Assembly (NCBI GenBank): GCA_002189035.1
Contig: NEEC01000009.1
Span: forward strand, 2,418,001 to 2,482,000
DNA from: Utricularia gibba
Lineage: Eukaryota > Streptophyta > Magnoliopsida > Lamiales > Lentibulariaceae
DNA: 64,000 bases
Direction of reading: 5' to 3'
The notes under the pieces were generated by a model. It saw nothing but the letters and a program-made list of their open reading frames with translations, was not told where the DNA came from and did not search any database. The position numbers and the translations under genes were made by a program. Shown piece by piece: positions 3,887 through 59,957 of the stretch (its first letter is position 1; every line of letters begins with the position of its first letter).

Positions 3887-6855
3887 ATGGCGAAGCCACG
3901 ATATTTGAGGGGTCACACAGAGGCTGCATCTTGCTGTGTCGCTTCTCGTGCACGGCCCGGCGTTGTAGCCACTGGTGCAGAGGTACCCTATTTGGAAAAC
4001 AACAAACGTCGTAGTTAAGGAAAATTTGATACTATCAACGTCTGGGGCTCGAATCGGGATGTTTCTATCGCTGGTTTGATGGGTTTGGGCGGAAAGATGT
4101 GATCTTGGCTTGCTTCTTGTATGCATTTCATATCCCGGAATGCTCTTTCTTGGTTGCTGACAGTGTTTTATTTTTGTGGAATAGGATGGGTGTGTACGCT
4201 TATATGATCTGCGATGCAAAGACATTTTGCTAACCATGAGCGTGGGCGACGGGAGTCCAGTTTCGTCCTTGTGTTACAAGCCAGGTTTGATTTGTATTCT
4301 AAAGAATTGGTGTGGAGGCTAAAAATTACGCCGTGGGTTACACCTTTTCAACTTTAGTAGTAAAAGGTATTAAGAAGAATTTGTCTTTGATGTGACTTGG
4401 ATTATGTAAGGTGGTTGTAAAATTCATCATTATGTAAGGTGACTTCATTCTGATTCATATCTCACGCCCTTCCCTGACTCAGAGAGTATTTTACAGGAAA
4501 TGAAGATTCTATGTACATTTCCGTGGGGAATGAAGTCAAATGTTTTCATATGCGTATGGTATGATTTGATTTCATAGACATTATTTCTTGTGATGCCCGA
4601 ATTCATGTGTCCATAATTCATTCAAGATCTCCACATGTTCAATGAATGTTTGGGGTGGTAATTTTTCTGGTCTTGTTGGAAATGGTTGCGAACTTGATCT
4701 CTTTATTTTTCATCATTTTTCTTCTTAAACTGAAATTCATCCCCGTAGATACTATTGCATATACTCTACCTCGATTTATTTTAAGTTGGTTATACCGCAG
4801 GTTCATCTGCTATTAGTTGTTTCAATGCAAGTAAAATTTTTTCTCATTGTTTGCTATTTTAGTTGTCATTTTTTAGTGAATGTTGATAGTATCTTTTGTC
4901 TGTACTCTTTTTCAGCCATCATCGTATGAGAAATTGGATGGTTTCAGTTATAACAAAGATGAAATAAATCAGGTATGCCACCGATATATGCTATTGAATT
5001 TTGTGGTTGCTTTCACTGGTAGCGACTTGTCACTCCCTTCGAATTTATCCTTTTTTTTTCACCTTTTGCGGCACCTGTTTGTGACACATAAAGTAAGTTT
5101 TACCATATCTTGCAGATTGTTCACCATCCAAAGTCATCTTTTCTCGCTGCTGCTGATGACACCGGAGATGTGAAGGTAATAACACTTCATTGAAAGATTT
5201 TTATCATTTAGAATGAATTATCTGGTAAATTGCACAAAGTTGTGAGGAAGAAAGCAAACAATTTGGAAGCCTATGGTGAATCTGAGTATATGTTTGGTTG
5301 CAAAGGGGAATATTGAGATCTCAATGTTTTGATCAATGATCAACATGAAATCTTCTTGACAGCAAACAGTTGAAAAGAGGCTCATTAAACTCAATCTAAA
5401 CTTTTGATCTTGCTGGATGCTCTGTACAGTAGGAAAATTTGGAAATGGTGGAAACTTGCTTGTATTATGCTGGCATACTCTGGGTTCTTTGTTTGTGATC
5501 ACAGTATGTCATTGTTGGCAGGCATTAGTTTTATGTCTCTTTGGCGCCTATTTATTCTTGCATGATTACATGATGTTTGCAAATGACAATACAAGTGATC
5601 ATAAAGCATATCCCCATTGCAGGTCATCGATGTTCAACAACGATGCCTATACAAAACGTTAAGAGGTGGCCACGAAAATGTACAATTTTTTACATCTTAT
5701 GTTTTCAGGGAATTATTCACTTTTTGTGGCCTTTTCTGTTCCTTCCAACTCGTTTTCTTGTTTGACTGCCGTAGGTTAGCCTTAGTGTCTGTTCATACTT
5801 TTATATTTTGTGGATTTGGAGTCCTTATTCCAGTTCTGAGCCTTTCATTCTCCCCAGATCTGCAGCAGCGTCCAGTTTCTTCCTTGGAGGTCTTGGAAGG
5901 TTCTGCTACAAACTTCCATTTTTGTGGTGGCCAACACATAATGTCAACGACCATTCAGGTTCTTTTGATGCTTTTCTTTTCTCATGCACAGGCATCACTG
6001 GAGGTTTCGATTCAAGGCTTGTAACGTGGGATTTCTCCACTGGTCACTCAAAGCTAATTATGGACTTTGGTATCCTTTTGCTGTTTTACTTGCAACCGCT
6101 GTTTCGAAACATCGATTTCATGGTAACTTGTGGAGCTCAGTCTAATCACTGCATTGCTTAGGAGCTGCAAGTGATGCTGGCCAGCTCTGTAACCCGCCTT
6201 TTGTCCATGCGTTGGCTGTTCCCGACCTTGACATGGCTGATGAAGTAGGCAAGGTATGTGCAGTGGCCAGGGGAGATGGAGTCATCAGTGTGATGGATAT
6301 CACATCCGAAAATGCCTCTGCCAAATCCAGGCATCCCTCAAAGCCAAAGAGATCTTCCAAATCAACATCAAATTGTAGTTCTCCGAGCGCTGATTCCCAG
6401 CCAGTGGTCCAAAATGTCAGAAATCTGCAGTTAGATTTCTCAATGGGGGGACACCTCTCTGCAGCCTCCTGTGTGTAAGAAATGAAGCTCTACTGCACTC
6501 ACAGTCCCCTCACTTCAGTTCAAGAACTTTTTAACCATCACCCTCCCCCACACAGGGCCTTTTCCCTGTTCGGAAGCAAAGGGAAGCTCATCATTTCCGG
6601 TGGTGATGACAGAACAATCAAGGTATGGGATTGGCGCAAAGCTTATGACTGTGGTGCAACTGATGCTTTGCGGTCCGAGATTCGCCTCCGGCGAAAGGTG
6701 AGTACCATGATCCTGATCTGGGTTTTCAGGTATGGAAGCTTGACCCTTTCCCGTGTTGTGAACAGGTGAACTCAATCTGCACAACTCCATTAGATGCTGA
6801 AAATCTGGTCGTCTGTGACACTTCCAAAGCAGTGAAGGTTTATACCGTCTGCTAA
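3887..6855 (+). CDS. WD40-repeat protein, WDR53-like
   Basis: Eleven exons: 3887-3982, 4185-4284, 4497-4558, 4916-4972, 5116-5175, 5623-5679, 5858-5899, 5992-6069, 6162-6474, 6556-6697, 6766-6855, giving about 365 aa. WD40 blades are visible as GHTEAASCCVAS/DGCVRLYDLR, SSFLAAADDTGDVKVIDV, GGFDSRLVTWDF and SGGDDRTIKVWDW, so a single beta-propeller is expected. Order and spacing fit plant WDR53 (At5g45760 type). Animal WDR53 is a DDB1/CUL4-associated protein; the plant role is inferred only. Two oddities: (1) the exon 7 to exon 8 join (5899/5992) is out of frame by one base with any GT donor, and one extra G at 5899-5900 would give both the correct donor and the conserved ITGG continuation; (2) the intron 6070-6161 starts GTATCCTTTT and looks U12-type. 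The short ATG exon 1 was found by matching the expected MAKPRYLRGH start. Confidence 0.85.
6070..6161 (+). other. Probable U12-type (minor spliceosome) intron
   Basis: The donor reads GTATCCTTTT, a full match to the U12 donor consensus. The acceptor is TTAG. A branch-like TCTAAT places its adenosine at about 6145, 16 nt before the 3' end, within the usual U12 window. The intron splits the WD40 CDS in phase 1, and both flanking exons are in frame. Confidence 0.65.
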
Positions 6856-7284
6856 ACACTCTGTAAAAGGAGAAGAAACATAAATGATTCGCCCCACAAC
6901 GCAAGAAGTGAACCTCCACTGTCTTCAATGGCTGCGGTCCCAGTTCTGCCGAGGACATGATGATTAACTCGAATGTGGAGGGGGGCGTCACCGCATCAGC
7001 CAACAGGGAGACCAAGGCCCTGGTTATGCTGCCGGTTCGAACAGACCGGTGTAAACCGGTTTCCTAGCTACCTGTTCGAAACAGAAAGCATTTTTTGGTT
7101 AAAAAACTCCGGTCCACCGAGATCGTGATTTTGTCCGGCCCACTGAGTGAGGCCCACGGGCATGCCATCGCTTTTGTACCGTAGCGCCTTTAGCTGTAGC
7201 CTGTAGCTGAAGGCCGGTCAGCTTTCCTCCGTTGCTGCTCCGCTTTCCAGTCCCCCACGCTCCTCCTCCACCTTCCTCATTCCG
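6856..7284. other. Intergenic with imperfect inverted repeat
   Basis: This holds the 3' UTR of the WD40 gene and the leader of the receptor-like protein gene. An inverted repeat lies at 7034-7082, with arms GGTTCGAACAG and CTGTTCGAAAC (one mismatch) flanking two ACCGGT boxes. No additional ORF is supported. Confidence 0.5.
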
Positions 7285-8550
7285 ATGCCGTCAATGGGTT
7301 TTGCGGCCTTCCTCATTTTCGTGTTCTTTCTCAGCAAGGAACTCTCCGGCGCTGTCGCCGCCTCTGTCGTTGCGGTTTCCCCTGCTTCTTCTCCACGCGG
7401 TGCTCCCTCGGAGTCCCGGCCTGCACCATCCTTCCCTCTTGACCCCAAACAGCTCCTCGCACTTCATTCCCTCAACATTCCCACCTCCAAAAACCCTTGT
7501 ACTTCGCCGGCCACCGCGTGCGACTCCTCTGCACCCTACAGCCACCTTGTTTCGCTTTCCCTTGCAAACTGTTCCGATGATGTAGCTTTGTCTGTCACTG
7601 CCTTGAAATCCCTTTCCACTCTCAAATCCCTCGCCTTCATAAACTGCCCCATTTCCCCAATTCGATTCCCACCTGAACTTACCTCAAATCTCCATTCTTT
7701 CACTTGTATTAATAGCTTGACTAAGCTTACTGGTGTCTGGTTAAGCAGGTTGCAGAATGTGACTGACTTAACCGTCGCCGGAGTTAGCGTGAATGCCTCC
7801 GGTCCGTCGATTATTCTCTCCGGAATGAAGCTACTCCGCTCCGTTACTCTTTCCCGGTGCGACCTCGGTGGCACTGTTCCTAGACATTGGCATCCCAATC
7901 TTACTTTCATCGATCTGTCGGACAATCATCTGAGAGGGAAGATCCCTAGCTCTCTGACACGTTTAGAGAGCCTCGTTCACCTGAATCTCTCTGCTAATTT
8001 GCTCAATGAATCCATACCTAGCAACATCGGCGACTTGATTTCTCTGCAGAACCTCTCCCTGGCTTTGAATACGATATCTGGGCCGATCCCAGATTCCTTA
8101 GCCGCCCTGCCGGAGCTAACGCACCTCGATCTGCACTCCAACCAGCTCGATGGGACAATCCCAGATTTCCTCAAAGACATGAAGAAACTGAGATACCTGA
8201 ATCTCGAGAGGAACAACTTTCACGGGGTTTTGCCCTTCAACGCGACCTTCATAAGAAACATGGAGGTGTTCAAGGTGGGTGCAAACGCGAATCTCTGCTA
8301 CAACCGCTCGCTCCTGGGACCCAAAGTGAAGCTGGGAATCTACCCCTGCGACAAGCATGGGAAACCCATTTTGCCGCCGCCGTCCAAGGACTCATCGAGC
8401 GAGGACTCAGCAGACGACGATTATAGCAACTTGCAGCAGCCGAAGCACCATAGCGGACCCAGCAAAGTCGTCCTTGGAGTAGCGATTGGGCTCTCCTCCA
8501 TCGTGTTTCTGATTGTTTTCTTGGTCTGCTTATCCAAATGCTGTAGATGA
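7285..8550 (+). CDS. LRR receptor-like protein (RLP51/RLP55-type), no kinase
   Basis: A single uninterrupted 421-codon exon starts at ATG 7285. An N-terminal signal peptide (residues about 1-28, [12 protein letters not shown] core) is followed by a Pro/Ser-rich linker. A capping region starts with [20 protein letters not shown] and is followed by plant-type LRRs (about residues 185-330; for example [19 protein letters not shown] and [16 protein letters not shown]). Next come an acidic juxtamembrane stretch and one transmembrane helix (about 394-415, [20 protein letters not shown]) with a very short basic tail ending CCR. There is no kinase, so signalling would need a partner. This matches the short Arabidopsis RLPs around RLP51 (SNC2) and RLP55, an immunity-related group. 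The assignment to that clade is by memory. The plasma-membrane location is inferred from the signal peptide and TM helix. Confidence 0.88.
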
Positions 8551-9834
8551 GAGACCTTGGACTGCGGGTCGGTGCCGGATTTTGCTGGGAGTGAGATTCC
8601 GCCATTAAAGATTGCTTCACACAACCCTTCTTCTCTCCTCAATTCCTCTCTGGTTCTGCTCGGCGGTTCTATTCGGAATCAACATTCTTCCCCATTTCCA
8701 TTAGGATCCTTTGTCACCCCCATTTTACGTTTCCTTTTGAAATACATGTTCAATTATATTGGATGAATTTAAATTATTTGAATATAAATTATTTAAATTT
8801 ATATGAATTAAAATAATTTTTTATTGGTAGAATAATTATTTATTATCAACTTTTTTGTTTAGATTGTATTATTTGGGTATTGGATATTTTATATTTAAAT
8901 TAATACAATGCCCTTATGAATTAATTTGATATTAATTAAAAGAAAAAATAAGCAAAATTGTCCAATTGACAATGTATATTTATAAATATAGATGTTTTTT
9001 TATTAATCTAATTATATTTAATGATTGTGCATTTCGACCCGTTGGGCCACTTCCTTGTGCTTGCTAGGAGAATGTAATGGGCTGGCCCATGATCACCTCT
9101 TGGGCGCGTCTTCGATTCAAACTTGGGTGAGTGACTCGGGAGCCCGTTCGCTCTTGGTTCTTGGATTCGATTTCTGGGGAAGATGCCTCCTGAAGTTCGA
9201 TCAATTGGAGGATCGTAGAATTTCGCGGAATTTCTGATGATCCAGGTATATTCTTTACTGTTTCTATTGTGCATGATATTAAGCTATAATTGTTGATTTT
9301 CCTGCGTGGTTCTGGTGGTTTGTGGTGTCTGTTAATGTGAATGATGAGATCAAGCATGCATATTAAAGGGGGTAAATTGAAGTCGGACAACTATTGGGGA
9401 GGAAACAAATGATGTTCGGATGAGGGACGGGGTTAGTATGGAGATGTTGATTAATTGTTGTTTCATACTGCTCCACTTCTAATAAGTTATTTCACTAACA
9501 AAAAAAAGTACTTTTGTGTTAGAAATAGATATCTGAAACGCTCCAAAATTTTGGAGCGCTTTAATGCACCCAGCATTTTGCTCTAAAAATTTTAGAACCA
9601 CCTCTAAAATTTATCAATCACTTTATTGGAGCTGGAACTGTCATCAAATTTTCAATAGCAGCGTTGTTATCATGTTGGTGGCATTGTCTCTGTAGTTAGT
9701 TTACCTAGCATGATTACTTTCTTCCCTTATGCTACGTGAGACACGCACTGGGATAATCTCTGATTCACCATTTCAGGTTCGAGGACACTGATCTCATTGT
9801 CGTAAGCTAGAAGTCCTAGTTAGGATCAAAAATT
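8551..9834. other. Intergenic: AT-rich spacer, then 5' UTR with intron
   Basis: The 3' UTR of the receptor-like gene (to about 8760) is followed by an AT-rich spacer (8760-9020). The leader of the small complex I gene follows. A likely 5' UTR intron runs 9246-9775 (donor CCAG|GTATAT, acceptor TTTCAG). It contains a perfect 20-bp palindrome at 9539-9558 and further CTAAAAATTTTAG-like palindromic AT-rich motifs, possibly a decayed MITE. Confidence 0.5.
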
Positions 9835-11314: not shown

Positions 11315-11668
11315 ATACCACCTAAAGGGTGTTGGTAGTTTTCTGAGGTTTGGTTGCTGCCATGATTTGCCCTTCTCAATAAGGTGTTGTTCTTTTCTTG
11401 TCTACTGATCATTTTCCTGTCTCCAGGGTGTTGCAACCCTTTTGCATGTTCACAAGGCTATGTCTTCACTTTCATTACACGTACCACCACCACTAAATCA
11501 AAAGATAAATAAGGTTTAATTTCTGGAACTGAAATTAAATCAGATCGGAAGTGATGTTTGGAGTATAATATAGTTCTATTAGAAATAGAATCTCAGGAAC
11601 TGAAAATAAATGATTCGACACTATGAGAAGGTGATAGGAGAGCAGCCAATACCTCTGCAAGTGCTCTT
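11315..11668. other. Intergenic, convergent 3' ends
   Basis: This lies between the plus-strand peptide ORF and the minus-strand exonuclease stop at 11669. It holds probable 3' UTR only; nothing else is seen. Confidence 0.5.
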
Positions 11669-16587: not shown

Positions 16588-16623
<36 letters not shown>

Positions 16624-18640: not shown

Positions 18641-18711
<71 letters not shown>

Positions 18712-19475: not shown

Positions 19476-22400
19476 ATGATGAGTGCACTCCCTTTTGTTG
19501 CTGGGGTTGGCGGTTCTGGGGATATGGGTGGTGATTTCTTTCTCAACCCAGTGCACCTACGTTTCTTGACAGCCTCTCTGCACCTAGTGTTGTTGTTTGT
19601 AGTGTTGTTTTCGTGGCTCTGCAAAAGTTTTTCGAGCCATGAGGAGGATGAGGATCGGAAGATCAAAGTTTTCCGGCCCAGGATTAGTTACTATAAGTCA
19701 ACAATGTTTACATGTTTGGGATTTTCGGTGTTCAATCTTGTTCTCTGTCTCTTAAGTCTTTTTTATTGGTATAAAAATGGCTGGAGTGACGAAAAGATTT
19801 TAATTTTCGTTGAATATGCGGTGAAAGCGGTGGGATGGCTAGCTCTTTATCTCTTCCTGCAAATTCCTTTGTCAAACTCTTTGGAAACCAAGTACCCTGT
19901 TGCTTTGAGGGTTTGGTGGGGGCATTCCTTTGTGTCTCTGGTTACTGTGTAGTGATAGACATTTTTTATTATGGGAGTCATGGGTATTTACCATCTCTGT
20001 TTTGGAGCTCTGATGCTCTTTCATTAGTGATGGGTTCTGGATGCTGTTGTATGGTGTTTTTGGGTAGGAAAAGTTATGAAAGTATCAACCCTGAAGCCGA
20101 GGAGCCACTCCTCATTTCTGCACCTCTTAAAGGTGACGAAACTGTGACACCTTACGCTAAAGCTGGGAGTCTTAGTCTTCTTACTTTCTCTTGGATGGGT
20201 CCCTTAATTGCTCTTGGATACAAGAAAATCTTGGATCTTGAGGATGTTCCTCAACTTGCTGATCCTGATAGTGTTAAGGGGACGTTTCCGATTTTGAATG
20301 GCAAGCTTGAATCTTACCGTGGAGAGAACAACAAAATCACTGCTTTGATGTTAGCCAAGGGCCTAGTGTTCACCGTTTGGCGCCCTATTGCACTCTCTGG
20401 TTTCTGTGCGCTGGTATCTACATTAGCCTCTTATGTAGGTCCTTATCTCATTGAAAACTTTGTTCGGTACTTGAATGGACAAAGGCACTTAAAAAATGAA
20501 GGGTATATGCTAGTTTCTGCATTTGTTGTGGCAAAGTTGTTTGAGTCCTTCGGACAGCGGCACTGGTTCTTTTTGGCGCAGCAGGGTGGATTTAGGGCGA
20601 GATCAGCATTGGTTTCGAAAATTTATAACAAGGGATTGACTCTATCTTGCCAATCAAAGCAAGGCCAGACTACAGGGGAGATTATAAATTTCATGGCTGT
20701 GGACGCAGAAAGGGTAGGAGACTTTTCTTGGTACATGCACGATATATGGATGACGGTTATACAAGTTGTGCTAGCACTAGTAATATTATACAAAGATGTC
20801 GGCCTTGCTTCAGTCACTGGACTTATTGCTACCGTAATCGTAATGCTGTTAAATGTTCCATTGGCCAATTGGCAGGAGAAGTTTCAGGATAATCTTATGA
20901 AAACTAAGGATGAAAGAATGAAGACAACTTCTGAGATACTGAAAAATATGAGAATTCTCAAGCTTCAGGCTTGGGAAACTAAGTTCCTTGATAAAATCAT
21001 GGATATTCGGGGTGTTGAGGCAAGTTGGTTGAAGAAATATCTTTATACTGGTGCAGCAACAACGTTTGTCTTCTGGGTTGCCCCTACATTTGTATCCGTG
21101 GTTACTTTTGGCTCTTGTATTCTAATGGGAATTCCCCTGGAGTCAGGAAAGATTCTTTCTGCCATTGCAACTTTTAGAATTCTTCAAGAGCCTATATACA
21201 ATCTTCCTGACACAATATCCATGGTTGTTCAGACTAAAGTTTCCCTTGATCGAATTGCATCATTTCTTTCTCTTGATGATCTTCAAGTAGATGTTGTTGA
21301 GAAGCTTCCTGCTGGAAGTTCGGACACAGCTGTAGAGGTGATCAGTGGGAACTTCAGTTGGGAGGAATCCTCTACTCCTACGCTGAAGAATATAAATTTT
21401 GAAGTTTCTCATGGCATGAAGGTTGCAGTATGTGGATCAGTTGGTTCAGGCAAGTCAAGCTTGCTTTCTTGTCTTCTAGGAGAAATGCCAAAGATATCTG
21501 GCACCATAAGGCTATGCGGATCAAAGGCATATGTTCCTCAGTCTGCGTGGATTCAAAGTGGAAGGATTGAAGAAAACATACTTTTCGGCAAATCAATGGA
21601 CATCCACAGGTACAACAGGGTCTTGGAAGCATGCGCATTGAAGAAAGACTTGGAAATACTTCCCTATGGAGACAAAACTGTAATTGGTGAAAGGGGAATA
21701 AATATGAGTGGGGGTCAGAAGCAGAGGATACAGATTGCAAGAGCTTTATATCAAGATGCTGATATTTATTTGTTTGATGATCCCTTCAGTGCTGTGGATG
21801 CTCATACAGGAACACATCTTTTCAATGTAAGAATTGTTATAGAATTTTTAGATATCTTGCAATTGCAGCCTAATGTTTTTTCGTCTGTGATTCAGGAATG
21901 CATTCTTGACTTTCTATCCTCTAAAACTGTAATCTATGTCACACATCAAATGGATTTTCTGCCATCTGCTGATCTGATTCTGGTAGGTTGGTCGTTCATC
22001 TCTTGTTTGATGGGATTCAAGAGCCAAACTAAAATTTAATGGCTGTCATCAGGTGATGAAGGATGGAGAAATTAAAGAAGCTGGAAAGTATAATGAACTC
22101 CTCAAATCAGGAAGCAATTTCATCGAGCTTGTTGGGGCACATGAAGAGGCTTTGGCTTCTCTTGAATTAGATACAAAAATTTCTAGTGAGCAAACCACTT
22201 CTGTACAAGGAAAAGCTGCCTCTCTACAGAACCAAGAGTCTCTTAAAGATAGAAATGATGGTAAAGAAGGAAAGAGGCAGCTTGTTGAAGAGGAAGAAAG
22301 AGAGAAAGGAAATGTTGGACTTTCTGTTTACTGGAACTACATCAGAACAACATATGGAGGACTTCTAGTACCTTTTGCTTTGTTGTCACAAATTATGTTT

Positions 22401-31633: not shown

Positions 31634-32741
31634 TTACCTTGAAACATTAGGGAATGTGTCTGTTTTCTCACACTCATAGTATTCTGTCAAATAAGCCAAT
31701 GCTTCTGAGTTAGTGTTGCAGACTTTCCACAAGGCGGCAACTTCGTTGTTCGAGACAGTCCCCACCGCTCACATTCATCAATGAATTCCAGTAATTTGGA
31801 GTAAAAGGAATCATAGTTCATCAGCAGAAATGGCACAGGGAGAACTGAACCAATTCTTTGAAGCTGAATCAATGCAAGAACCTCAAATGCTTCATCAAGA
31901 GTCCCGATTCCACCTGGCAACATAACGACAGCAGTCTTATCTGCGCTAGTTGCTCGCATGGCTGCATCAACTAATCCATGCTTCCTCGCGGAAAAGTATC
32001 TGAATGCAGAATAAAGCAATGACATATCGAATGAGAAATGCACAATACCAGTATACTATCATCACATACCTACAAGTTATGTAATTTTGCAATGGAAGAT
32101 ATGGATGAATATTTGTAGCAGTCCATTCTCCAGCTTCTTTGCTGATTTTAAATCCACCAACAGGCTTTCCTGCTTCCAGAGCCCCTTTGGTTACAGCATC
32201 CATAAGCCCTGGTCCAGCACCTGACCATGAAGTACAATTTAACAGATTTGCAATCTGCCAAGAAAAAAAAAAGCATATTGAAAATCAACAGATATTGTTC
32301 TTCAACAAATTTCAAAAACATCATCAAAACTGGATTCAGAATTGCTCACTTCTTTCCCTAATTCAAATGTTTGTTCATAATGGGGATGCCCAGGCCCCAA
32401 CCTTGCAGAACCTAAGTACACCACTCCTCTACCCAGTCTCTGTATAAGCTCATAGCACTTTTCAATCTCTTTCTTCACCTTCAGCAAACAGAAGAAAAAC
32501 TAACATGCTTCAAGATGCAGACGAACACAAGTAATCCCACTTTTAATACCTCAGCAGGGCTTTTTCGCTCCAATTCAACCCCATCAAGATTATAGCAAAA
32601 GGGCTTCAATCGAAAGTTGAGAACTCGCGATATTGCTTTGAATCTTTTGCTTCCTCCCCTCAATACTAGCTCCTTTAATGGGCAAGCCTTAACCCGATGA
32701 AAAATCAATGTAGCGCCCGGACAAAGAATTGAATGGCCCAT
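31634..32741 (-). CDS. LOG-like (TIGR00730) nucleotide-binding protein, At1g50575-type
   Basis: Four exons (minus): 32741-32550, 32478-32350, 32254-32070, 31999-31634, giving about 290 aa. The Rossmann-like 'lysine decarboxylase-like' fold of cytokinin phosphoribohydrolases shows as VVYLGSARL, WSGAGPGLMDAVTKGA, VGGFKI and the signature PGGIGTLDE. The basic N-terminal extension may be a targeting sequence. The closest match recalled is At1g50575, a conserved LOG-family outlier. Cytokinin-activating activity is not proven for that branch. The last exon changes frame once: CERWG continues in another frame as TVSNNEVAALWKVCNTNSEALAYL at a C-run (31760-31763 on the plus strand, G on the coding strand). 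One missing base explains it and moves the stop from 31687 to 31634. Total CDS is 872 nt, one short of a multiple of three. Confidence 0.82.
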
Positions 32742-33045: not shown

Positions 33046-36000
33046 ATGGTGTTAGAGGGCGATGCCAGGGATCTCAGATGGGCACACGTGGCTGCCTGGC
33101 GCCGCAGTGTTTCGTTCTCGCTGAATCAGCCATCTTCGCGGTGCGATCAACAAGCGGATAATGATGCCATCAAAGTAGATATCAGTAAAGATGATGTTCG
33201 CGAGTTCTCTCGGATTCTGCTCCTCCTTCGAGGAAACTCTGCGCTCAGAAACTTGGACTTTGGTGAGGTGGAATGGGACGAGGAAGGGATTGCGCATTTG
33301 TGCTGGATACTCGAAAACTGTTCCCTGGAGCGGTTGGTTTTTCAGAAGAACAAGTTTGAGGTACATGGGTTGAGGGAGTTGATGTCAAGTCTGGGGAGAA
33401 GCAAATGTGTCAAAGAACTGGTATGGTCTCGATCTGGGATCAGGGGATCAGAAGGAATCGAATTGCTTGCTAATGCTCTCGTGGGAAATACTTCTTTGGA
33501 AGATCTGCAAATACGGCAAGTCTCGATTGGATCAAAGGGAGCAGAGGAGCTATCCAAGATGATACAGGTGAACTCATCTCTAAAGATGCTGAAACTCTAC
33601 GACTTGCGGATCGTAACAGCCACACCGTTGATTTCTGCAGTTTTGGAGAGTAATAGATCATTGGAAATGCATGCATGGAGTAATGGAGAAGGTGGGAATG
33701 ATTCAAAGATGGTTGAATGCGTACCTGAAACCGGCCTTCTCCATGTGTTCAACATGGATTTTTCAGGTGCCCGCAGGGTTGCTTCTTCTTTGGGTGTGAA
33801 CTCTACCATCAGAATTCTTGATTTGAATGGAATCCAGCTGAAACCGCAGTGGGCAAAGGAGTTCGGGAGGGTTCTCGAGCAGAATCTAACACTCAGGGAG
33901 GCGAAGCTTTCCAGAACAGGTCTCACAGACCAGGGAGTTATTTATGTTGCAGCAGGGCTTTTCAAGAACAAGAGCCTAGAAAAGCTGTTCCTTGAAGGGA
34001 ATTCATTTTCAGGAGTTGGTGTAAACCATTTACTCTGCCCTCTGAGCAAGTTTTCCTTGCAGCAAAAACAAGCAAATACCTTCCTCAAAACTGTAACTTT
34101 TGGCGGAGGAAGAACAAAGGTCGGCAGAGATGGGCTAAAGGCTCTACTACATATGTTGAAAACCAACGAAAGCCTCACCTTCCTGGGAATATATGGCGAC
34201 CACAGCTTGAGTCCGGAGAGCATAGCCAAAATCTTCAAGAGCCTGGAAGGAAATGCAACCTTAAAACAATTATCTCTACAAGGGTGCAAAGGTGTGAAGG
34301 GTGAGCCTTTGCTGCAAGCCATAATAGAACTGTTGAATGTAAATTCATCAATAGAAGACATTGACCTTGCAAGGACTCCACTTCACGCTACTGGGAGAGC
34401 ACAAGCTATATGTCAGAGATTAAACCGGACTGAGAGTCTCGAGCCCATTGCCGATAATCTTGATGACATGCCAATGGTGCCGGTCAGGACTTGCCGCGTT
34501 TTCCTCTGTGGTGACGAATTTGCTGGTATGCATCAAATCTTATTACACGAATCTAATGAAGCATGCGTGTATGAAATGTACATATTCTGTGTGCTATATA
34601 GGTAAGAGCACAATATGCAGCTCCATATCACAAAGTATTTTGATTCCAAATCTTGCTGGGTTTGATCAACTGAGAATTTTTGTGAATACTATTAACCGAG
34701 CTATTGAAGCACCAGGCATCAAGATAAGAACAATGAGGGATGCAGAGACGAAGATCATGATGTGGAATCTAGCTGGGCACCATGAGATGTATTCCATGCA
34801 TGATGTTATGTTTCCCGGACCTGGTACTGCATCTCTATTTCTCATCATATGCAGCTTGGTCAGAAAACCAAGCAACACCGAGCCGAAATCCCCGAGTGAG
34901 ATTGAAGAAGATCTAGAGTGTTGGTTAGAGTTCATTCTTTCCAACTCAAGACGAGCAGCACAACAATGCATGTTACCGATGGTCACAACGGTGCTAACTC
35001 ATTGTGACAGAATAAATCAGCTACCTGACTTCCTTCAGACTACAGTAAGTGTAGTCCATAAGATGAGAAACAAATTCTGCGGCTTACTAGATTGCCATCC
35101 CACTATCTTTACAGTTAATGCAAGATTGACAGAATCAGTGAGTGAGCTCAGTCATCATATCAGAAAAACAAGCAGGGCCATTATAGAAAGGGTTCCACAA
35201 GTTTACCAGGATGTCATTGATATGGTGGAATTGCTATCAGGATGGAGGCAGCAAAACCGAAACAAACCTGTGATGAAATGGGAAGAATTCGCTGAGCTAT
35301 GTCAAAACAGGATACCGTCTCTAAGAATTCACTCAAGGCGTGCCAATAAAGACAAGGTAGAGATAAGGAGGAGAACAGTAGCTAAAAACCTTCATCAGAT
35401 AGGAGAGTTAGTTTACTTTGATGATTTGGAGTTCTTGATCTTAGATCACCAGTGGTTTCACAGCAAGCTACTTACTAGGCTCACAGCAATAGACGCTAGA
35501 ACAAAAGGTTCTGGTGAGAATAGTGGATTCATAAGCCAACCGGAACTTGAAAAGATTTTAGCACAAAGCTTGCAGATTCGATTTCCAGGTATGGGATTGA
35601 ATATCATGGAGACCTTCAGGGCAAATGACCTGATACAAATAATGCTGAAAATGGAGCTTTGTTATAAACAATATCCATCAGATCCTTATTCTCCCCTACT
35701 CTTCCCCTCAAACATGGAAGAAAACAAGATGAGAGAACAGAGATGGCCTCTGAACACTCCTGAATGTAAATATGTAGGGCGCCGTCTTCAGTCAGATGAT
35801 ATAAACTACATGTTCTTCAGAACAGGCTTCTTCCCTCGCTTGCAGGCATGTTCGTTAAATGCTAGAAACTATCATCTTTTCTCTTTTCTCTTTTTCGCAC
35901 TTTAAGTCATCTTGGATTAGCAGAGACAGATTCACCTGTTATCTGAAAAAGTTGATCTTATTATTTTCAGGTAGAACTGTACAACAAAATCATGGGGTTA

Positions 36001-38622: not shown

Positions 38623-39638
38623 ATGGAATCGGAAGCCGGGAATGTGGGTGTTGTTTGCCTCATTGTCGTCTCCTCTCTTTGCTACTGCTACTTCGTTTCA
38701 GGGGCGCTCCCGCCCGGGAAGAGGCGCCTGCTTTCTCTTCTTCCAGTCCTCTGTATCTTCGCCTTGATCCCTCTTTGCACATCCTCCGTCTTCTTCACCG
38801 GTGTCTCCGCCTTCTTCTTCACATGGATGTCCAACTTCAAGCTTCTGCTGTTCGCTTTCGATCGTGGGCCGATTTCCGCTGCCCCCGGATCCTTCCCCAT
38901 CTTCGTCGCTACGGCTGCTCTGCCGTTCAAGGTGAGGGCGAAGAACCAGCCCCCCAGAAAGCCTAAGAGGTTGCCACTGAATCTTACGGCAGAGATCCCA
39001 ATATCTGCAGTGATTTTGTCGGCTGTGTGTGCTTACAAGGAGCGGATTCATCCCAACGCCTTGTTGATCTTATACTCTTGTCTCATTTTCCTACTGGTCG
39101 AGGTTCTCGTGGGGGTCTCAAGCGCATTCCTCAGCGCCGTCTTTGGGCTTGACCTGGAGCCGCCTTCAGACGAGCCGTATTTGGCGACCACCGTCCGCGA
39201 GTTCTGGGGCAGGCGCTGGAACTTAGCGGTCAACGAAATACTCCGGGAGACGGTGTACCGGCCGGTGCTCTCGGCCGCAAAGGGGAAAGAATGGGGGGCG
39301 CTGGCGGCCGCGATGGCGGTGTTCGTCGTGTCCGGTGTGATGCACGAGGTAATGCTCTGGCACGTGACGAGGGCAACGCCGTCGGGGAAATGAGCATGTT
39401 TTTCGTGGTCCAAGGGGGGTTTGTGGCGGTCGAGTCCTGGGCGAATAGGAAGAAGAAGAAAAAGGCGCCGTGGTTCGTGGGGTGGCCGGTGACGATGGGG
39501 ATCGTGATAGGGACCGCCTTTTGGCTCTTCTTTCCACCGCTGATCAAGAACGACGCTGATGTTCGGCTTCTGGGGGAGTTGGAGGCGGCAGCGCAGAGAT
39601 GCAAGCAAATGGGCCACGTGCTAGGCCTCAACTTTTAG
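38623..39638 (+). CDS. Wax synthase, long-chain-alcohol O-fatty-acyltransferase (MBOAT type)
   Basis: One exon encodes about 338 aa after allowing for a single missing base. Multiple hydrophobic helices span the protein (VGVVCLIVVSSLCYCYF, LLSLLPVLCIFALIPL, ILYSCLIFLLVEVLVGVSSAFL). Family motifs are FFFTWMSNFKLLLFAFDRGPI, EFWGRRWN and VFVVSGVMHE, whose His is the conserved MBOAT catalytic histidine. The enzyme would join fatty acyl-CoA to fatty alcohols in the ER. The frame breaks at the four-G run 39384-39387. Upstream it reads RATPSG and then meets a stop; the other frame continues EMSMFFVVQGGFVAVESW and AFWLFFPPLI, the normal C-terminal half. The length after one added base matches plant wax synthases. 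The start is ATG 38623; a TTG three bases earlier is ignored. Confidence 0.85.
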
Positions 39639-41062: not shown

Positions 41063-41733
41063 ATGAGGCGGGGAGAGCGGCGGCGAGGAAATCGGAGGCG
41101 GTGGGCGGGGGATTGGTGGATGGATCTGGGGTTTCCAAGGAGATTAGGTTCAGAGGCGTGAGAAAGAGACCCTGGGGCAGATACGCGGCGGAGATAAGGG
41201 ATCCGTGGAAGAAGACGCGGGTCTGGTTGGGGACCTTTGACTCGGCGGAGGACGCTGCAAGGGCTTATGATTCCGCCGCTCGCTCTCTTCGTGGCCCGAA
41301 AGCGAAGACGAATTTCCCTCTCCCGGCGAACGGCGGAATTTTCCCTGATTTTAACCCTCAAAACCCTAACCAGGCCCCAATCGTTAATTACCACAACGAT
41401 CCATTCACTGGACAGGGGTTTTATACGCAGGATCAACAGACGATTGCCCAACAGAGGCCTACTTCCAGCGGCATGAGCAGCACCGTTGAATCTTTCAGTC
41501 GCCCCCGGCAGCAGGTGCAGCCGCCGCTGCCGCTGCGGAGGTTTCCTCGCTCCCCTCCCATTGCTCCAGATGACTGCCACAGCGACTGTGACTCCTCATC
41601 CTCCGTGATTGATGACGCTGATTGTGATATGGCTTATTCCTCTGGTAAAAAGTTCCTGCCTTTTGACCTCAATGCGATTCCTACGGTGGACGCTGATGCA
41701 GAGGAGCTTGCCTGCACGGCGCTGCGACTTTGA
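41063..41733 (+). CDS. ERF3: ERF3-like AP2/ERF transcriptional repressor with EAR motif
   Basis: One exon encodes about 223 aa once a single missing G is allowed. The AP2/ERF domain (about residues 32-89) reads [31 protein letters not shown] and keeps the Ala and Asp of the ERF subfamily at its usual positions. Group VIII features follow: SSTVESFS, a [16 protein letters not shown] block, the EAR repression motif LPFDLNAIP and a C-terminal CTALRL. This is the ERF3/ERF4-type repressor that binds GCC boxes. ATG 41063 is followed by a four-G run (41070-41073). As printed, the frame from this ATG stops at 41161, whereas the AP2 frame has no ATG. One extra G gives the family start [12 protein letters not shown]. 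The start assignment therefore depends on that correction. Confidence 0.87.
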
Positions 41734-43544: not shown

Positions 43545-46250
43545 ATGGCAGCAAGGGAAGCTGATAATCCTGCTCTTGGGCAAATTAGTTGTGGTACATT
43601 GCTGCAACAATTACAGGTAATTCTGCAGTGCTCATCTCATTTGTATCCGTGTTCTGCTGACGCTAGAGACTGAGACGTGTTGTGTAATCTCTTAAAATCA
43701 GAAAATTTGGGATGAAGTAGGTGAATGTGATGATGAACGCAACAGAATGCTTGTTCAATTAGAACAGGAATGCTTGGATGTGTATAAGAGAAAAGTTGAT
43801 CAGGCTGTGAAATCCAGAGCCCATCTTCTCCAGACATTGGCTGATGCTAGAGTTGAGCTCACAAATCTCCAATCCGCACTTGGAGAGAAAACTTATGGTG
43901 GAATAGTAAGTAATTAAGACTGAAATACAATGAGGAAGATCTCCGGGAAAAAACTGTAATCTCTCAAAATTTCCCTCAATGACTTCTTTAACAGCCGGAG
44001 AAGACATCAGGGACGATCAAGGAACATCTTGCTGCTATAGCTCCTGCACTGGAAAAACTATGGAAACAGAAGGATGAAAGAATGAATGAGTTTTCTGATG
44101 TTCAGTCTCAGATACAGAAGATCAATGCTGAAATTTCAGGAACTAATGGTGTAGTTCCGAGTCCAGTAGTTGACGAGACTGATTTATCCCTGAAGAAGTT
44201 AAATATATTTCGTACGCAGCTCCAAGAATTGCAGAAAGAAAAGGTTAGGTCCTTTCTACTAATGCACCTTCAGTTTCTTCTTTCATTCTGTGAAGGCTTA
44301 CTCCTTTATACATTCAATTGTTTTAGAGTGATAGGCTGCACAGAGTTCTTGAATTTGTCAGCACAGTTCATGATCTTTGCGCCGTTCTGGGCTTGAACTT
44401 CCTCACAACTATCGCAGACGTGCATCCAACCCTGAATGACTGTAGTGAGTTGCAGTCAAAAAGCATAAGCAATGACACATTATCTAGATTGGCTAGGACG
44501 GTTTTGGGTCTTAAGGAAGAGAAGAACCAGAGATTAAAAAAGGTAGTGCCATCAGCTTGTCCCTCTTTCTTTATAAGCTTTGTTGTCAATTTTATTTTAT
44601 ATTTTTATCCTCTGAATCCTGCAATGATTCTTATTTCGTATGGCTCTCCGCGCAGCTCCAAGACTTGGCGACTCAGTTGACTGATCTCTGGAACTTAATG
44701 GACACTTCTTCAGAAGAACGCAGCCTTTTTGACCATGTAACTTGTAACATTTCAGCTTCAGTTGATAAAGTTACTATGCCTGGGGCACTTGCTTTGGAAC
44801 TAATTGAACAGGTAGCAGGGATATTCAATTGAATCATTATCTTGTCCCTTTCTTCTATTCAATCGTTCATGAAATGTTGTTTCCTAAATTTCTGAAGGCT
44901 GAAGTGGAAGTGGATAGGCTCGATCAGCTGAAGGCTAGCAGGATGAAGGAAATAGCTCTCAAAAAGCAATCTGAGCTTGAGATAATCTACGCTCTTGCAC
45001 ACATAGAGATTGACACTGATGCTGCTCGGGAAAAAATTCTATCGCTCATAGATTCAGGAAACATTGAACCCACAGAACTCTTGATGGACATGGATGATCA
45101 GATATTCAAAGCAAAAGAAGAGGCTTTCAGCAGAAAAGAGATATTGGATAAAGTTGAGAAATGGATGTCAGCTACTGAAGAGGAAAATTGGCTTGATGAT
45201 TATAATAGGGTAAGAAGTGAACTTTCTGTTGCTCTACTTGAAGTGATTAAGTGTTCAGAGATGAGGGATGCAAGCATTTTCTTATTCAAGCATAGCTTGG
45301 GAGGGGCATTTATTACAAGGGAAAATAAATGGATAAAAATGCATTACCCATAGAATCCTTCAATTTTCATCATTATTAGTAACTTTATTTTGATTTGATG
45401 GAGAGCCATGAAACAATGTCGTTTATATCTCCACCTTTCTGATCGGTGAAGTCCTGGTTTTTGTTCAATAATTCAGACACTAGCTCAGAATGTTGTATGG
45501 CACAACAGGATCACAACAGGTATAATGCCAGCAGAGGTGCACATTTGAATCTTAAGAGGGCAGAAAAGGCAAGAGTACTGGTCAACAAAATTCCAGGTAC
45601 TTATCAAACATGTGACATATCTCCTGCATTATAACTTGTTTCCCATGAATCATAGATACTTTATCTGGGCCAATATTTGAATCTCAGTTGAAATTCCTTT
45701 TTCATGATCCCTTTTCAGCTCTAGTTGATAGCTTAATTTTCAAAACTCGTTCCTGGGAGCAAGATCATGGAGTTACATTCACCTACGATGGTGTTCCTCT
45801 TCTTGCAATGCTAGAAGAATACACGTTTTTAAGGCAAGAGAGAGAAGAGGAGAGGAAGAGAATGAAGGTTATACTTATTTCTCTATACGGGATTCCTCTG
45901 TCACTGTGCATATTTTGGTCAGACCAAAATATAAAGTCTGTCGACTGCCAATTTCAGGACCATAAAAAGTTCAATGAGCAGATGAGCAAGGAACAAGAAG
46001 CCATATTTGGCTCACCTTCTAGCCCAGCCAAACAGCTTAGCACGAGGAAATTGGCTGGACCACGAACCAATGGTGCAGGCTCTGTTGGTAGCTCCACCCG
46101 GCGGCTTTCCTCTCAGAACGGTTCTAGATCCGTGAACCGCGATGGGAGGAGGACAGCAGGCCTGCTGCTCCTGTTAACTACGTAGCCATCTCGAAAGAGG
46201 ATACCTCATCTCATGCTACTGGCACAGACCCCCTTCCTAGTACACCATAG
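43545..46250 (+). CDS. MAP65: Microtubule-associated protein MAP65-1/2-like
   Basis: Nine exons: 43545-43616, 43702-43905, 43995-44243, 44327-44542, 44656-44811, 44898-45209, 45509-45596, 45719-45867, 45958-46250, giving about 579 aa. The protein is largely coiled coil, with leucine-rich heptads in [25 protein letters not shown] and [24 protein letters not shown]. The Ase1/PRC1/MAP65 microtubule-binding block is [27 protein letters not shown] ... LVDSL. The Ser/Arg-rich tail ends [13 protein letters not shown]...PSTP as in MAP65-1. It cross-links antiparallel cortical and phragmoplast microtubules. The last exon loses frame within GATGGGAGGAGGAC (46144-46152): as printed it ends 46185 with a leucine-rich tail, while one added G restores the conserved [14 protein letters not shown] tail and the stop at 46250. 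Confidence 0.92.
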
Positions 46251-47444: not shown

Positions 47445-48838
47445 CTAAAGTGGACAGAGTGATGCAACAATGTGCGAGAACTGAAGCTGATCCATGAGCT
47501 CCTTGGCATGAGCTGTGGCTCGACTCATGACACGGAGAAAAGCTCATTGCTAAGATGATCGCCGATGTGTGCATCGACTAGGACGCCGGTGACACTCCGG
47601 CAGCTGTTCGCAAGAGCTTGCCCAATCTCAGCCATGTCTTCAGGGTGACTGACCACCAAAGGGCTCCCTCCCCTGAAGAGCTCCAACCTTTTGATCATGA
47701 AGGAGCCATTTGCCTCTACCACCTCCTTGAAATCCTCCACACTTGGAGCATAAACAGGGATATTGAAACTATCCCTTTTTCCACTGGTTATCAGTCCCTG
47801 TAAGATGGACAAATGATGGATGAACACTGTACAGTTGCTTACAGGAAGCATCATATGAAAAAACACAAATAGATGCATGTACCTCTTGCACAAGGTCATC
47901 CCATGCATCTTGGAAGTGAGTTCCGAAGAGAACTCCGGCGCCGCCCTGATCAGATGGGTCGGAGGAGGCCCGACCCAAGCATACCAGGAACATGGAGCCT
48001 CCCTTTTTCACTTCTTTGGCCCTTGCAGAGAGGAATCCTGCCAGGTCTGTCTGAAACTGTTTCTTGTATGCATTAGCTGTGCTTTCACTTGCACCGTGGA
48101 TGAACACTTTTCCCCTGTTGTAAGCCGTTGATCTCTTGTCCGTAACCGCATCAGGAACCTTACATACCGTACCGTACAGAAAGAAAGAAGTTATAACCTG
48201 CTTACAAAACAAGTTTTTGACAGGAAATAATTTACGAGTCACCTGAGAAAGCCAGTGGAGTGAGAAGGCAGAGTAGAAGAAATCAACGGATTTGGCCGGA
48301 AAAAGGCGCCTGTAGAAGGAGCCAGGGACTCCGGCCGCGAAGTACGAGCGGTGGCTGTCCGAAGCCAGACACTCCTCCATGCTACAGCCGTCATAGGGAG
48401 GGAGGAGCTGAAACAGGACATTGAAGTCATTCGACGGCAGATCGGAGAAAAAAGCGGAAAACTCCGGCGTGTCGTCCCCGGCATCCTGGTACCGCTTAGT
48501 GATATGCTTCACGATAAAATCCACCATGAATATGGTGTTGCTCCCACAGGAGCAGCCGAGATCCGCCACCACGAAGGCGACATCCGCCGTGCTCAGCCGC
48601 ACGCCATCCAGCGCTTCTCTCAGCAAATGCAGCATTGATCGAGCATGCTGAGCCTAAACATTTCAGTCCAGTCACATACTTCTCCCATTCAAACAAAAAG
48701 AAACATCCTTTCTTCATAAACAACACTGAAAAAAACCTGAGCTTGGGAGTTGTTGAGGTAGCTGTCTTCTCCTTTGCCTCCTTTCATGCTCAGCATCCTT
48801 TCGAGCTTCATCTTGGAAACGACGACGTTCTCAGCCAT
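47445..48838 (-). CDS. IAMT1: Indole-3-acetate O-methyltransferase (SABATH)
   Basis: Four exons (minus): 48838-48737, 48653-48243, 48158-47883, 47797-47445, giving about 380 aa. The start MAENVVVSKMKLERMLSMKGGKGEDSYLNNS is the SABATH N-terminus. The SAM-binding motif is VADLGCSCGSNT. Substrate-site residues include the conserved SYFAAGVPGSFYRRLFP and FSLHWLSQVPD segments. FIHGASESTANAYKKQFQTDL and GTHFQDAWDDLV complete a very close resemblance to Arabidopsis IAMT1 (At5g55250), which methylates auxin. The printed frame stops at 47525 after NELFSVS, but the other frame continues RVMSRATAHAKELMDQLQFSHIVASL, the family's C-terminus. One missing base at 47534-47535 explains it. A TATA box sits upstream at 48915-48922. 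The longer N-terminal reading through the TATA region is not used. Confidence 0.93.
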
Positions 48839-54600: not shown

Positions 54601-55782
54601 GTAGACGCTGCATCTGCAGCTGCCATTCTTGAAGCTGCCACTAGAGGCATTAAAAGATCTATCTCAATAGCCTCTCCAGTTGATCACGATGTGCCTGGCA
54701 CTGCAGCCTTCATTGCCACTGAAGCTTCTGGTGAACACAGTGCTTTAGAGATGCGCATGACCAAGGAGCGGAAACTAAAAGCCGAGAGACTGAAAAGGGC
54801 AAAGAATTTTGTGGCGATGTTGAAAAATCAGGAATTGCCTTTTAAAACAGGGGAATCACGCTGCTCATCTTTAGAACCTGCAACTTCTGGAGGATTGAGG
54901 TCTGCTGATGAGAAAGATCATCATGGAAAAGATAAGAAAAGTACTGGTCCTACAGATGCATTTAGTCTCGATTCTGGCCTAAAGGTGGTTGGTGGAGAAC
55001 ATAATGAACGGATCATATCAAGGAAGCATCGCTCAAGACCAAAAGGATATGAGGATGGTGTTATTGATGATGATGGGGTTATCAAGGAGGATAGTGGGCG
55101 ATCGGAATCCAGACATACGGGCGTCGATCATGGATGTGGGCATGCTGCAGGGCCAGCACAAAAGCATAACACGAGAAGGCAACGGGATCGATATTCCAGT
55201 GAAGAAGAGCATGGTGGAGGGAGTGGAGACCATAAGCACGACAGATCGAAGCATCGGTCGCATGATTCACATCAAGAAGATGAATACAAAGATAAAAAGG
55301 ATGCCAAACGTTCCAGGAAGAAGAGTCATTCTCACCATTCCCGTCATGAGCATTCAAAGAAAAGGCCTTCATCTTCATCTAAAGGCCATGATTGGGAAGG
55401 GTATGAAAATGACGATGACCATGGAGATAAAAAGAGATCCAGGAGAAAACATAATCTGCATGGCGACAGGGAAAGGCAGGAGCACAAAAGGAGACATTCT
55501 CGGAGAGACAAGGAGCCTAGACAGCATTCCAAGCACTACACCAGTTCAGATGATGAACACCAGAGCTTGCACGAGCATAAAAAGAAACGGCATCGCCATG
55601 TAGATCCTCCAGAAGATGGAGTCTACTCGGAGTCTAAACATCGTAACACTATCCAAGAAGCCTCTGCGGACGCACCAGCATTCCCTGAACGAGCCCCCTC
55701 TCAGCCGTCAGATACTAATACTGAGGTCCCCGATGATCTCAGAGCCAAGATCCGTGCGCTGCTGATCGCAACTCGGTTATAG
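51652..55782 (+). CDS. SWAP/surp-domain splicing regulator (SFSWAP-like)
   Basis: Four exons: 51652-51913, 52545-52705, 53123-53917, 54370-55782, giving 876 aa without interruption. The N-terminal domain (RHAMLFDDDAMAAFCNSSDALVEW ... IDRYDVRHLL) is the DRY_EERY domain of SFSWAP proteins. Two SURP modules follow: SEKAHQIIAKTALFVRKHGG ... HELHAYFRYIVEH (about 145-205) and LQRLIAKVVEYIIRNGKQFEAMLIEQ ... NQFHAYYLKIL (about 345-400). An Ala-rich helix (VDAASAAAILEAATRGIK) comes next. The long His/Lys/Arg/Ser/Asp-rich tail (about 620-850) resembles an RS-like region. It probably acts in pre-mRNA splicing in nuclear speckles. I recall a similar Arabidopsis protein at At5g55100. Long ORFs in other frames of the last exon are shadows of its repetitive composition. 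Confidence 0.9.
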
Positions 55783-56394
55783 TCATATTCCAAATGGTTG
55801 TTTTGATAACCATCTCTACTCTGCACTCCCTGCAGATAGCCCCATGTTTCATCAAAGTTCACGTATGGCACATGCTCATGAACAATGCTTGCTTTTTGAA
55901 GTTCCCCAGGGCGTATCACTAAAAACTGGAATTGGGACTACATTTCAGAGGCAAGGATTGCAAGATCAGAAGCTGTTGCAGCTCAACGGCTTGTTCCTTC
56001 GCAGTTGCAGATGCGTTTTTTGTATGCAAGTGTCATTTTTTTGGACCTGCACAAGGCCATCAAGTAAACAGCCCTCTTTATTGTGTTGATGTGGTACGAA
56101 AATCTGAGGTTTGTGGGGTTGTGAAATCACGTGCAGTTATTGAAATATTTAGAAACAGAGAATAAGAGAAGCGAAATGTTAAATGAAGCTTTAAAAAAGA
56201 TGGTCCATTTGAGCCTACCCTCCACCGTAGCTTGGAGACAAGTAGGCAAAACCGGGAAATCTATCTGGGGGTGAGGCACCTCAAGGATTCCAATGGCTTA
56301 TCTTCACCAGTCCCAGAACCGTAAACCGCTGGGATCGGTTCTAGGAAGAGAGTGAAAGTACCCGGTAGTAGCTGACTTTCTTTCTTCTTTCACC
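55783..56394. other. Intergenic spacer
   Basis: 3' UTR of the SWAP gene and leader of CYP97B. No convincing ORF is seen. Confidence 0.5.
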
Positions 56395-59300
56395 ATGGCG
56401 ACTTCTGTAGTCAGTTGCTGCGGAGCTTGTTCCGGCCTCTTGCATCAGAATTCCGAATTTCCCACAACCCGTTTGTCGTCTTATTCTTCTTCCAGTTCTG
56501 CAGCTCCTCCAGTCGCGGCGTGGAAGCGAAATGGGTGTTCTATCAGGTATTAGTTCGGTTCAACGACTGTTGTTTAGAATACCCACCTCGTAAAACTGGC
56601 CGAACACTAGAGATATGTGGTGGAAGTTTATTTTCGGTTAGGAGTTCGGAGTTTTCGTTCGAGTTCTTAGAGTTTGAACTACACTGTTATTGCGACTCTT
56701 TCTTGTATATTTTCAAATGTTCATTCTAGTCCGGATTCCGGTGTTGTTGAACCGTGAAGCATTTCATTGCATTATAATGGGATTGGCGTTTGAGATGGTT
56801 ACTTTTGAAAAAAAAAAAACATCATGCAGGTGTAAGTTGACTTCGGCTTCTGAAGAAACTAAAGGGCCTAAGTCAATCGTACTTGACAATGCAAGCAAGC
56901 TCCTTACCAGATTCTTGAGTGGAGGAAGTATTGGATCTATGCCTGTTGCTGAAGGAGCCCTCTCTGACCTGTTTGGCCGACCTTTTTTCTTTCCTTTGTA
57001 TGAATGGTTCATAGAGGTGCTTACTGTGTTATCCAAAGGATTCATTAAAGGAAATATCCATGAACTAGCTCGATTAACCTGAAACAAGATATTAGCTGAT
57101 AGCTTGTGAAGTGCTCTTATCTGTTTTTGAAAATTCATTTTGGTTTGGATTGTTCTTGTTTTCAATATTCATACTGTGTAAGTATACTGATTGCATTTGT
57201 TGGAATTTGCAGCATGGCTCGGTGTACAAGCTTGCCTTTGGACCAAAATCTTTTGTGGTGGTCTCAGATCCCATTATTGCGAAGCATATCCTCCGTGAAA
57301 ATGCATTTTCATATGACAAGGTTTGGCATTTCAAGACAGAACCCTGCATCCTCCAGCATCTTCCTAGCCAACACATGAGATTATATTTTTTTTATAACAA
57401 TCACTTGTATGGAGATAATCGAATAAGCCTTTGGAACAACTTTAACAGAATCGCTTTAGCATTCTCTTTATTTTATAAGTCCTGAACTCTCTGTTTCTGC
57501 TGAATTTTGTGTAGGGTGTTCTTGCTGACATACTGGAACCAATCATGGGAAAGGGCTTGATACCTGCTGATCTCGAAACTTGGAAGCAGAGAAGAAGAGG
57601 TTAGATTCTGCTTCATTAAATTGATTTTCTTTCTTCTTTTAAGTTGTTTTTTCAGTATCCTAAGCTTGCATTATATTTGTTACAGTTATTGCTCCTGGTT
57701 TTCACTCGCTTTACTTGGAAGCAATGGCCAAAGTTTTCACTGACTGCTCGGACAGAATGACCACAAAATTCGAAAAACTTTTAGAATCTTCTATTGGCAA
57801 GGATAACATTGAGCTAGATCTGGAAGCTGAATTCTCTAGCTTGGCTCTTGATATCATTGGTCTTGGTGTATTTAATTATGACTTTGGCTCTATTACCAAG
57901 GAATCCCCAGTGATTAAGGTGACGTTTCAATCCCATTTATTCTTCAGTGGCCTTTGATTTCTTAAATCCCTGTCACTCATAAACAGTTTTGGTGGTGAAT
58001 GTCCCTTCTATTTTCTTATAAAATCTCTGTTTTTCACATGCAGGCTGTATATGGTACACTCCTTGAGGCGGAGCATCGTTCCACATTCTACTTTCCTTAC
58101 TGGAAAATCCCTCTAGCCAACTTGCTTGTCCCTCGGCAACGAAAATTCCATGATGATCTGAAAGTGATCAATGATTGCCTGGATGGTCTGATTAAGAATG
58201 CGAAAGAGACAAGAGAGGTGAGAGCAAATGTAACCATATGGCCTGAATTGATGGGGAAAACCATTCTTCTATTTCATATAAGAAGCTTTTTGTTTAGGAT
58301 CTTATGTTTCATCGACTTTATGTTGACAACAGGAATCTGATGTTGAAAAATTGCAGCAGAGAGACTACTCAAATCTCAAGGTATGTTCCATTCTACACCC
58401 ACAGTTGTGGCTTTTTTTCAAACAATTCTGGTCATTGATGAGCAGACAAGCATATGTCGCACAAGTTTCTGAATGCATGATCCAGCAATGAACTGAACTG
58501 TTTGCAGGATGCAAGTCTATTACGCTTTCTGGTTGACATGCGGGGGTAGATGCCGATGACCGTCAGGTAATATATGATTCCATAAGCTGAATGATAAACA
58601 CTGCCTGTTTATCCTAGTTAAATAATACAACTGTAACCCTTGAAGATACTTATGAATGCATCCAATCATAGCTTCTCGTTCTTATAGTAGCCATGTTTGG
58701 TTCGGTAAATTCAGTGTTTTCTTTCCTTTCCTCCACAGCTAAGGGATGATCTGATGACAATGCTTATCGCGGGACATGAAACAACTGCTGCTGTTCTTAC
58801 CTGGTCTATTTACCTTCTTGCACAAGTACATACTATTTTTTTGTGCATTGACTGATCTCAAATATTGGGTTTATGGGTGCCTGGAAATTGATCAATCTAT
58901 CAATGCAGAATCCTTCCAAGATGAAGAAAGCTCAGGCTCAAATTGACTCTGTACTTGGACTGGAAACACCAACATTTGAGTCAATTAAAAAATTAGAGTA
59001 GGTTCTCCAAATCTCTCAGGATCTTTTGCTATCATTTACCACAAAGCAGTCTTAGTTTTGCATGTCCATATCCTCAGTTATGTGCGTCTCATTATTGCGG
59101 AATCTCTACGTTTATACCCACAACCACCATTGCTGATCAGACGTGCCCTTAAACCAGATAGGTTACCAGGTATTTTTTTTCCCAAGGTTTTCAGATGAAC
59201 TAGGAAAAATGCTGCTGATTCTGCTGGATCCTTTCTCCTATTTATTCCATCATAATACTTAATCACTACTCATGAACCATTCCTTCAATTGTTGACATTT

Positions 59301-59957
59301 GATGTGCCAGGTGGCTACAATGCTGAAGAGACAGGATATTCAATTCCTGCAGGCACAGATATCTTCGTTTCGGTATACCATGGCCCTTCATCGATAATAA
59401 TTACATGTATAAAAATAGACATGACTCTGTATTCAAATTCATTTTGTCATTCAGGTCTATAATCTGCACAGATCTCCCTACTTGTGGGACAATCCCAATG
59501 AGTTTGAGCCTGAGAGGTTTCAAAAACCTAAGGCAGCACAAACTGATGATGGCTGGGCTGGTTTTGATCCTTCTAGGAGTCCAGGGGCCCTCTATCCCAA
59601 TGAGGTAACCTCCATAACCAAAGCTACACTTCATCAAATCTCCAACGCTGCTCGTACTATTAGATCATCCACCTCATGCTGTCCTTCCAACACTTGGTCC
59701 CTAATACTTTCTTGTGTTGTGGACTTGTAGAGTATGGCAGATTTCGCTTTCTTGCCCTTCGGAGGGGGGCAAAGAAAATGCGTCGGGACCAGTTTGCGCT
59801 TATGGAATCAACTATTGGGCTGGCTCGGTTGCTCCAAAAATTCGATGTGAGCTTGAGGGGATCACCAGAATCAGTTGAACTGGTTACAGGAGCAACCATT
59901 CACACCAAGAACGGGCTGTGGTGTACACTCAAGAAGAGAGCACCATTAGACCAGTAG
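56395..59957 (+). CDS. CYP97B: Cytochrome P450 CYP97B (CYP97B3-like), plastid
   Basis: Fourteen exons: 56395-56546, 56830-57016, 57213-57320, 57515-57599, 57686-57918, 58044-58217, 58333-58380, 58508-58566, 58739-58825, 58909-58997, 59078-59169, 59311-59372, 59455-59604, 59731-59957, giving about 584 aa. The N-terminus is Ser-rich and transit-peptide-like. P450 landmarks are AGHETT (I helix), ESLR (K helix ExxR), PERF, and [10 protein letters not shown] with the heme-binding Cys. [24 protein letters not shown] and [17 protein letters not shown] are CYP97B-specific. CYP97 enzymes hydroxylate carotenoid rings; the role of CYP97B is less settled. Two single-base losses occur at G runs. At 58542-58546, exon 8 reads MRG then TAG instead of [10 protein letters not shown]. 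At 59785-59787, just after KCVG, the frame must shift to reach DQFALMEST. With both restored, the CDS is 1755 nt. Every other join is in phase. Confidence 0.9.

Follow-up and report, generated by a model that had tools for sequence, protein, structure and literature searches.

One-base losses in eight conserved genes of a Utricularia gibba genome assembly are almost certainly an assembly artefact

Results

Nine one-base shortfalls in eight genes

The window analysed here, a stretch of 64,000 nucleotides, is part of a 3.45-Mb contig in the Utricularia gibba assembly (100.09 Mb in 516 contigs of up to 8.5 Mb), which is probably the one produced from PacBio data with HGAP and described as having 88x coverage and a contig N50 of 3.4 Mb (PMC5793159). 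The original prediction had listed nine sites in eight otherwise intact genes of the window, each requiring one extra base to restore the reading frame (Table 1). When the letters of the window were read back, the printed bases at all nine sites were as it had given them. Pfam scans in all frames identified a conserved gene around each site, and the Pfam matches, ORF frames, paralogs and homologs together bore out the count of nine sites and eight genes, each site with a net need for one additional base. This tally covers the sites that the prediction listed; parts of the remaining sequence were also scanned, and the window may hold further losses, or a gain.

Table 1. Sites in the window at which a conserved gene is one base short of an open frame (window coordinates).
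Gene	Position	Strand	Observation
WDR53-like WD40 gene	5899-5900	+	One-base shortfall at exon/intron junction; base and exact place uncertain
ABCC transporter, N-terminal membrane region	19918-19922	+	GGGGG one base short; overlapping ORFs change frame
LOG/lysine-decarboxylase-like gene	31760-31763	-	CCCC (GGGG on coding strand) one base short
MBOAT_2 (wax-synthase-like) gene	39384-39387	+	GGGG one base short
AP2/ERF gene, MRRGR... N-terminus	41070-41073	+	GGGG just past start codon, one base short
MAP65 gene, C-terminal tail	46144-46152	+	One base short at last GG of GGGAGGAGG
IAMT1-like SABATH methyltransferase, C-terminus	47534-47535	-	GG (CC on coding strand) one base short
CYP97 P450	58542-58546	+	GGGGG one base short; both splice sites of exon present
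Same CYP97 P450, haem motif	59785-59787	+	GGG one base short

Outside evidence for a one-base shortfall was obtained at all nine sites. At three of them, paralogs from the same genome carry exactly one extra base: the ABCC paralog on contig C480, an ERF paralog that is 83% identical (C411:438980-440190), and a MAP65 paralog (C480:501526-504086) in which the additional base, at the missing position, is an A. For the IAMT1-like, CYP97, LOG-like and MBOAT genes, homologs were queried with an unknown residue placed at the break. The LOG structure 9us2_A aligned on both sides of its break, the SABATH methyltransferase structure 3b5i aligned gap-free over 96 residues across the break at 47534, and alignments to CYP97-type structures covered the two P450 sites along with the haem motif. 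In addition, at least four MBOAT paralogs in this genome span the position of 39384 in uninterrupted frames. Protein sequence was conserved on both flanks of the ABCC, ERF, MAP65, SABATH, CYP97, LOG-like and MBOAT breaks. The remaining site, 5899, lies at a junction (AAG/GT ... AG/GC) whose splice phase is one base short, and one WD repeat aligned continuously across the exon join. Judged from the sequence, the support for this shortfall appears good but weaker than that for the other eight.

Programmed ribosomal frameshifting or unusual splicing would also restore these frames, and site 5899 does sit at a splice junction. At the other eight sites, however, the frame changes between ORFs that abut or overlap, leaving no space for an intron. 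The sites have no slippery motif or position in common, and paralogs in the same genome, with the additional base present, require no frameshift. We regard this as the least probable of the explanations considered here.

Contig C480 carries, besides the MAP65 paralog, two tandem ABCC genes (C480:534604-547524) that are 97% identical to one another over 4.6 kb and paralogous to the ABCC gene of the window. The presence of both paralogs on one contig suggests a duplicated segment.

Several other candidate frame changes in the window were rejected. An ab initio frame model, in which gains and losses had equal cost, was of low power, as introns absorbed frame changes and the strands were contradictory. 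The only gain that it placed on a coding strand (8525) merely extended an LRR gene past its stop, and the match to a paralog does not continue beyond the printed stop. In a TORNADO1-like gene (33-37.3 kb), one suspected frame change was an ordinary short intron within the P-loop, and a second in this gene fits a GC-AG intron. The apparent GC-AG intron of this LRR-Roc-COR gene lies at 35800-35990 of the window (CAG/GCATGT ... TTTTCAG/GTAGAA).

Direction and identity of the lost bases

All nine sites showed a net loss and none a gain, as the original prediction had claimed (p = 0.004 under equal odds). Its further claim, that the lost base was always a G or C in a run, held in part. The protein evidence fixes the frame and not the letter, so that it establishes nine losses, with G or C being the simplest reading of their identity. 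Against a uniform rule, the MAP65 paralog has an A, and the stretch at 46144-46152 (GGGAGGAGG) is not a single run. The corresponding codon of the ERF paralog is GGC, so the base lost at 41070 could be any of the four. The runs at 5899, 46144 and 47534 consist of GG only, and the printed run has three bases or fewer at four of the nine sites. For at least three sites in the window, the lost base cannot be proved to be G or C. If the lost base is taken to extend the adjacent run, five of the nine sites fall in G/C runs of at least five bases, a class that holds 0.45% of coding bases.

One-base losses across the assembly

The GRAS family, whose genes are usually intronless, was used for a census beyond the window. 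Forty-three copies from many contigs were aligned to relatives with intact frames, gained and lost bases being given the same cost, and events were retained where flank identity was at least 45% on both sides. Twenty-two single-base losses passed this filter, distributed over 18 of the 43 gene copies. The sole +1 event that passed mirrored a base missing from the reference copy itself, leaving zero independent gains. Half of the losses (11 of 22) fitted a G/C run of at least four bases, versus 7 of 87 (8%) simulated random deletions (Fisher p = 2.7e-5); at a looser tolerance the enrichment had p = 1.0e-3. The lost base was placed with a tolerance that was identical for real and simulated deletions; strict best-score placement had been dropped as it was biased towards codons that copy the reference. 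One conserved run of C or G, of the Gly-Gly-Pro-Pro type, was a base short in each of several GRAS genes, DELLA-like or related, that lie on separate contigs.

Split gene pairs of the BAHD and UGT families comprised eight that were one base short and one that was ambiguous (BAHD, six plus the ambiguous pair; UGT, two). Although A/T runs are commoner in the sequence, G/C runs of approximately 4-7 bases dominated the losses; losses of T and of several bases also occurred, near a contig end. Net loss, enrichment in homopolymers and spread across the assembly, the features by which long-read deletion errors are recognized, were all found. These counts would correspond to roughly one error per 2-3 kb of coding sequence, a rate that is high for a polished PacBio assembly of 88x coverage and counts against the long-read explanation.

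The genome-wide pattern bears on whether the eight genes, or some among them, are true recent pseudogenes that arose by one-base deletions. In Utricularia gibba, genome duplication is known to have been followed by gene fractionation, and truly decayed genes are present in the assembly. Two of these, a psaA copy on C515 and a GRAS copy (C244:2105347-2106219), have broken frames like the window sites, but carry nonsense substitutions as well. By contrast, near the nine sites we saw no disabling changes other than the frame shift, and the nine changes all go in one direction. The loss is shared by conserved genes throughout the genome, several DELLA-like GRAS genes at once among them, and copies of one locus (C414, C416 and C422, described below) differ by missing bases only. 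The statement in the original prediction that eight separate pseudogenes are unlikely was therefore upheld, in that the further disabling changes of a pseudogene were not seen, and we consider pseudogenes a very improbable account of these sites.

The psaA break had itself been a candidate for the same one-base error and was excluded, its nonsense substitutions marking real decay. This copy (C515:70174-72322) adjoins a psaB gene that is intact; the contig is organelle-like, and the pair probably represents plastid DNA present in a different genome. The GRAS copy within C244:2105200-2106400 has two TGA codons plus frame changes and is pseudogene-like.

Copies of the same DNA on redundant contigs

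The nearest stand-in for a second assembly was DNA that had been assembled more than once. A search of this genome found no near-identical second copy of window 5-60 kb. The assembly does include duplicate or haplotype contigs, and one GRAS locus was present on three: intact on C422, at the end of C414 and at the start of C416. Compared to C422, the end of C414 lacked C, CGAGC, T and C with 0 mismatches over 1.36 kb, and the start of C416 lacked one G with 0 mismatches over 1.0 kb. In a second GRAS region, C316 and C412 differed by 1 mismatch and by 10 stretches absent from C316, two of which were losses in C runs; the GRAS frame was split in C316 and intact in C412. This pair is weaker evidence since the two contigs represent two haplotypes and show genuine differences beyond this region. 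In both cases, independently assembled copies of the same DNA differed by indels and not by substitutions, apart from the single mismatch between C316 and C412. The density of errors may be higher towards the ends of contigs.

These comparisons also bear on the possibility that the runs are truly short in the plant, as a consequence of deletion-biased slippage that affected short G/C runs in a clonal lineage and broke many genes at once, perhaps with weak mismatch repair and possibly with run lengths that are specific to one allele. Such slippage would leave a similar signature, biased to deletions and associated with runs, and the haplotype difference between C316 and C412 makes allelic indels conceivable. 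However, C414, C416 and C422 are free of substitutions and yet differ by losses, and two of these copies lie at contig ends. Moreover, 18 of 43 GRAS copies are broken, including most of the DELLA-like genes, which could not plausibly be tolerated. We judge slippage, in either form, to be less likely still than pseudogenes.

Discussion

Based on these findings, we consider the nine frameshifts to be errors left in the consensus of a long-read assembly, with a probability of about 96%. The losses occur without gains, are concentrated in G/C runs and recur across unrelated families, and redundant contigs of one GRAS locus differ without any substitution; the original prediction of under-calling during sequencing agrees with this. 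The proposed mechanism is that reads would disagree on the length of a run, so that the consensus would print one base too few, with G/C runs the worst hit. The genes of the plant would then be intact and only the assembled sequence one base short. PacBio continuous long reads would underlie the assembly, with no accurate short reads used in its polishing, and each lost base would presumably be a base of the adjacent run. That every lost base was a G or C, and which technology was the cause, are claims beyond the evidence. As the same losses were found across the whole assembly, they are a matter of data quality rather than new biology, almost certainly an assembly artefact that is ordinary in kind.

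The pattern resembles the errors that remain in PacBio HGAP/Quiver assemblies, and also in Nanopore assemblies, in which indels are far more frequent than substitutions, consist mostly of deletions and occur chiefly in homopolymers (PMC5964635; PMC12007338). Before short-read correction, a PacBio assembly of a known reference made with HGAP and Quiver contained 25,352 indels versus 1,798 substitutions, a 14-fold excess (PMC5964635), and in another long-read assembly false deletions were most of the indel errors (PMC12007338). There are also differences. Of the homopolymer errors in the published PacBio Plasmodium case, 98% fell within tracks of more than 14 bp, whereas the runs here are of approximately 4-7 bases, and A/T runs were dominant in the study of PMC12007338, unlike the G/C runs here. 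The preference for G/C in the Utricularia gibba assembly is stronger than in both published long-read cases, and methylation, chemistry or coverage could contribute to it.

The expectation that automated annotation of this assembly will split genes was supported by the census, in which approximately four in ten assembled GRAS copies needed a frame shift to be read through. With such a proportion of frame-broken copies, short reads or RNA are needed to check any gene model, count of pseudogenes, or claim of truncation or loss that is based on the assembly alone. An example of a claim confirmed by transcripts is the reported DCL3 truncation in U. gibba, for which RNA-seq and 5' RACE provided the check (PMC8333044); such claims about the genes of this plant are unaffected.
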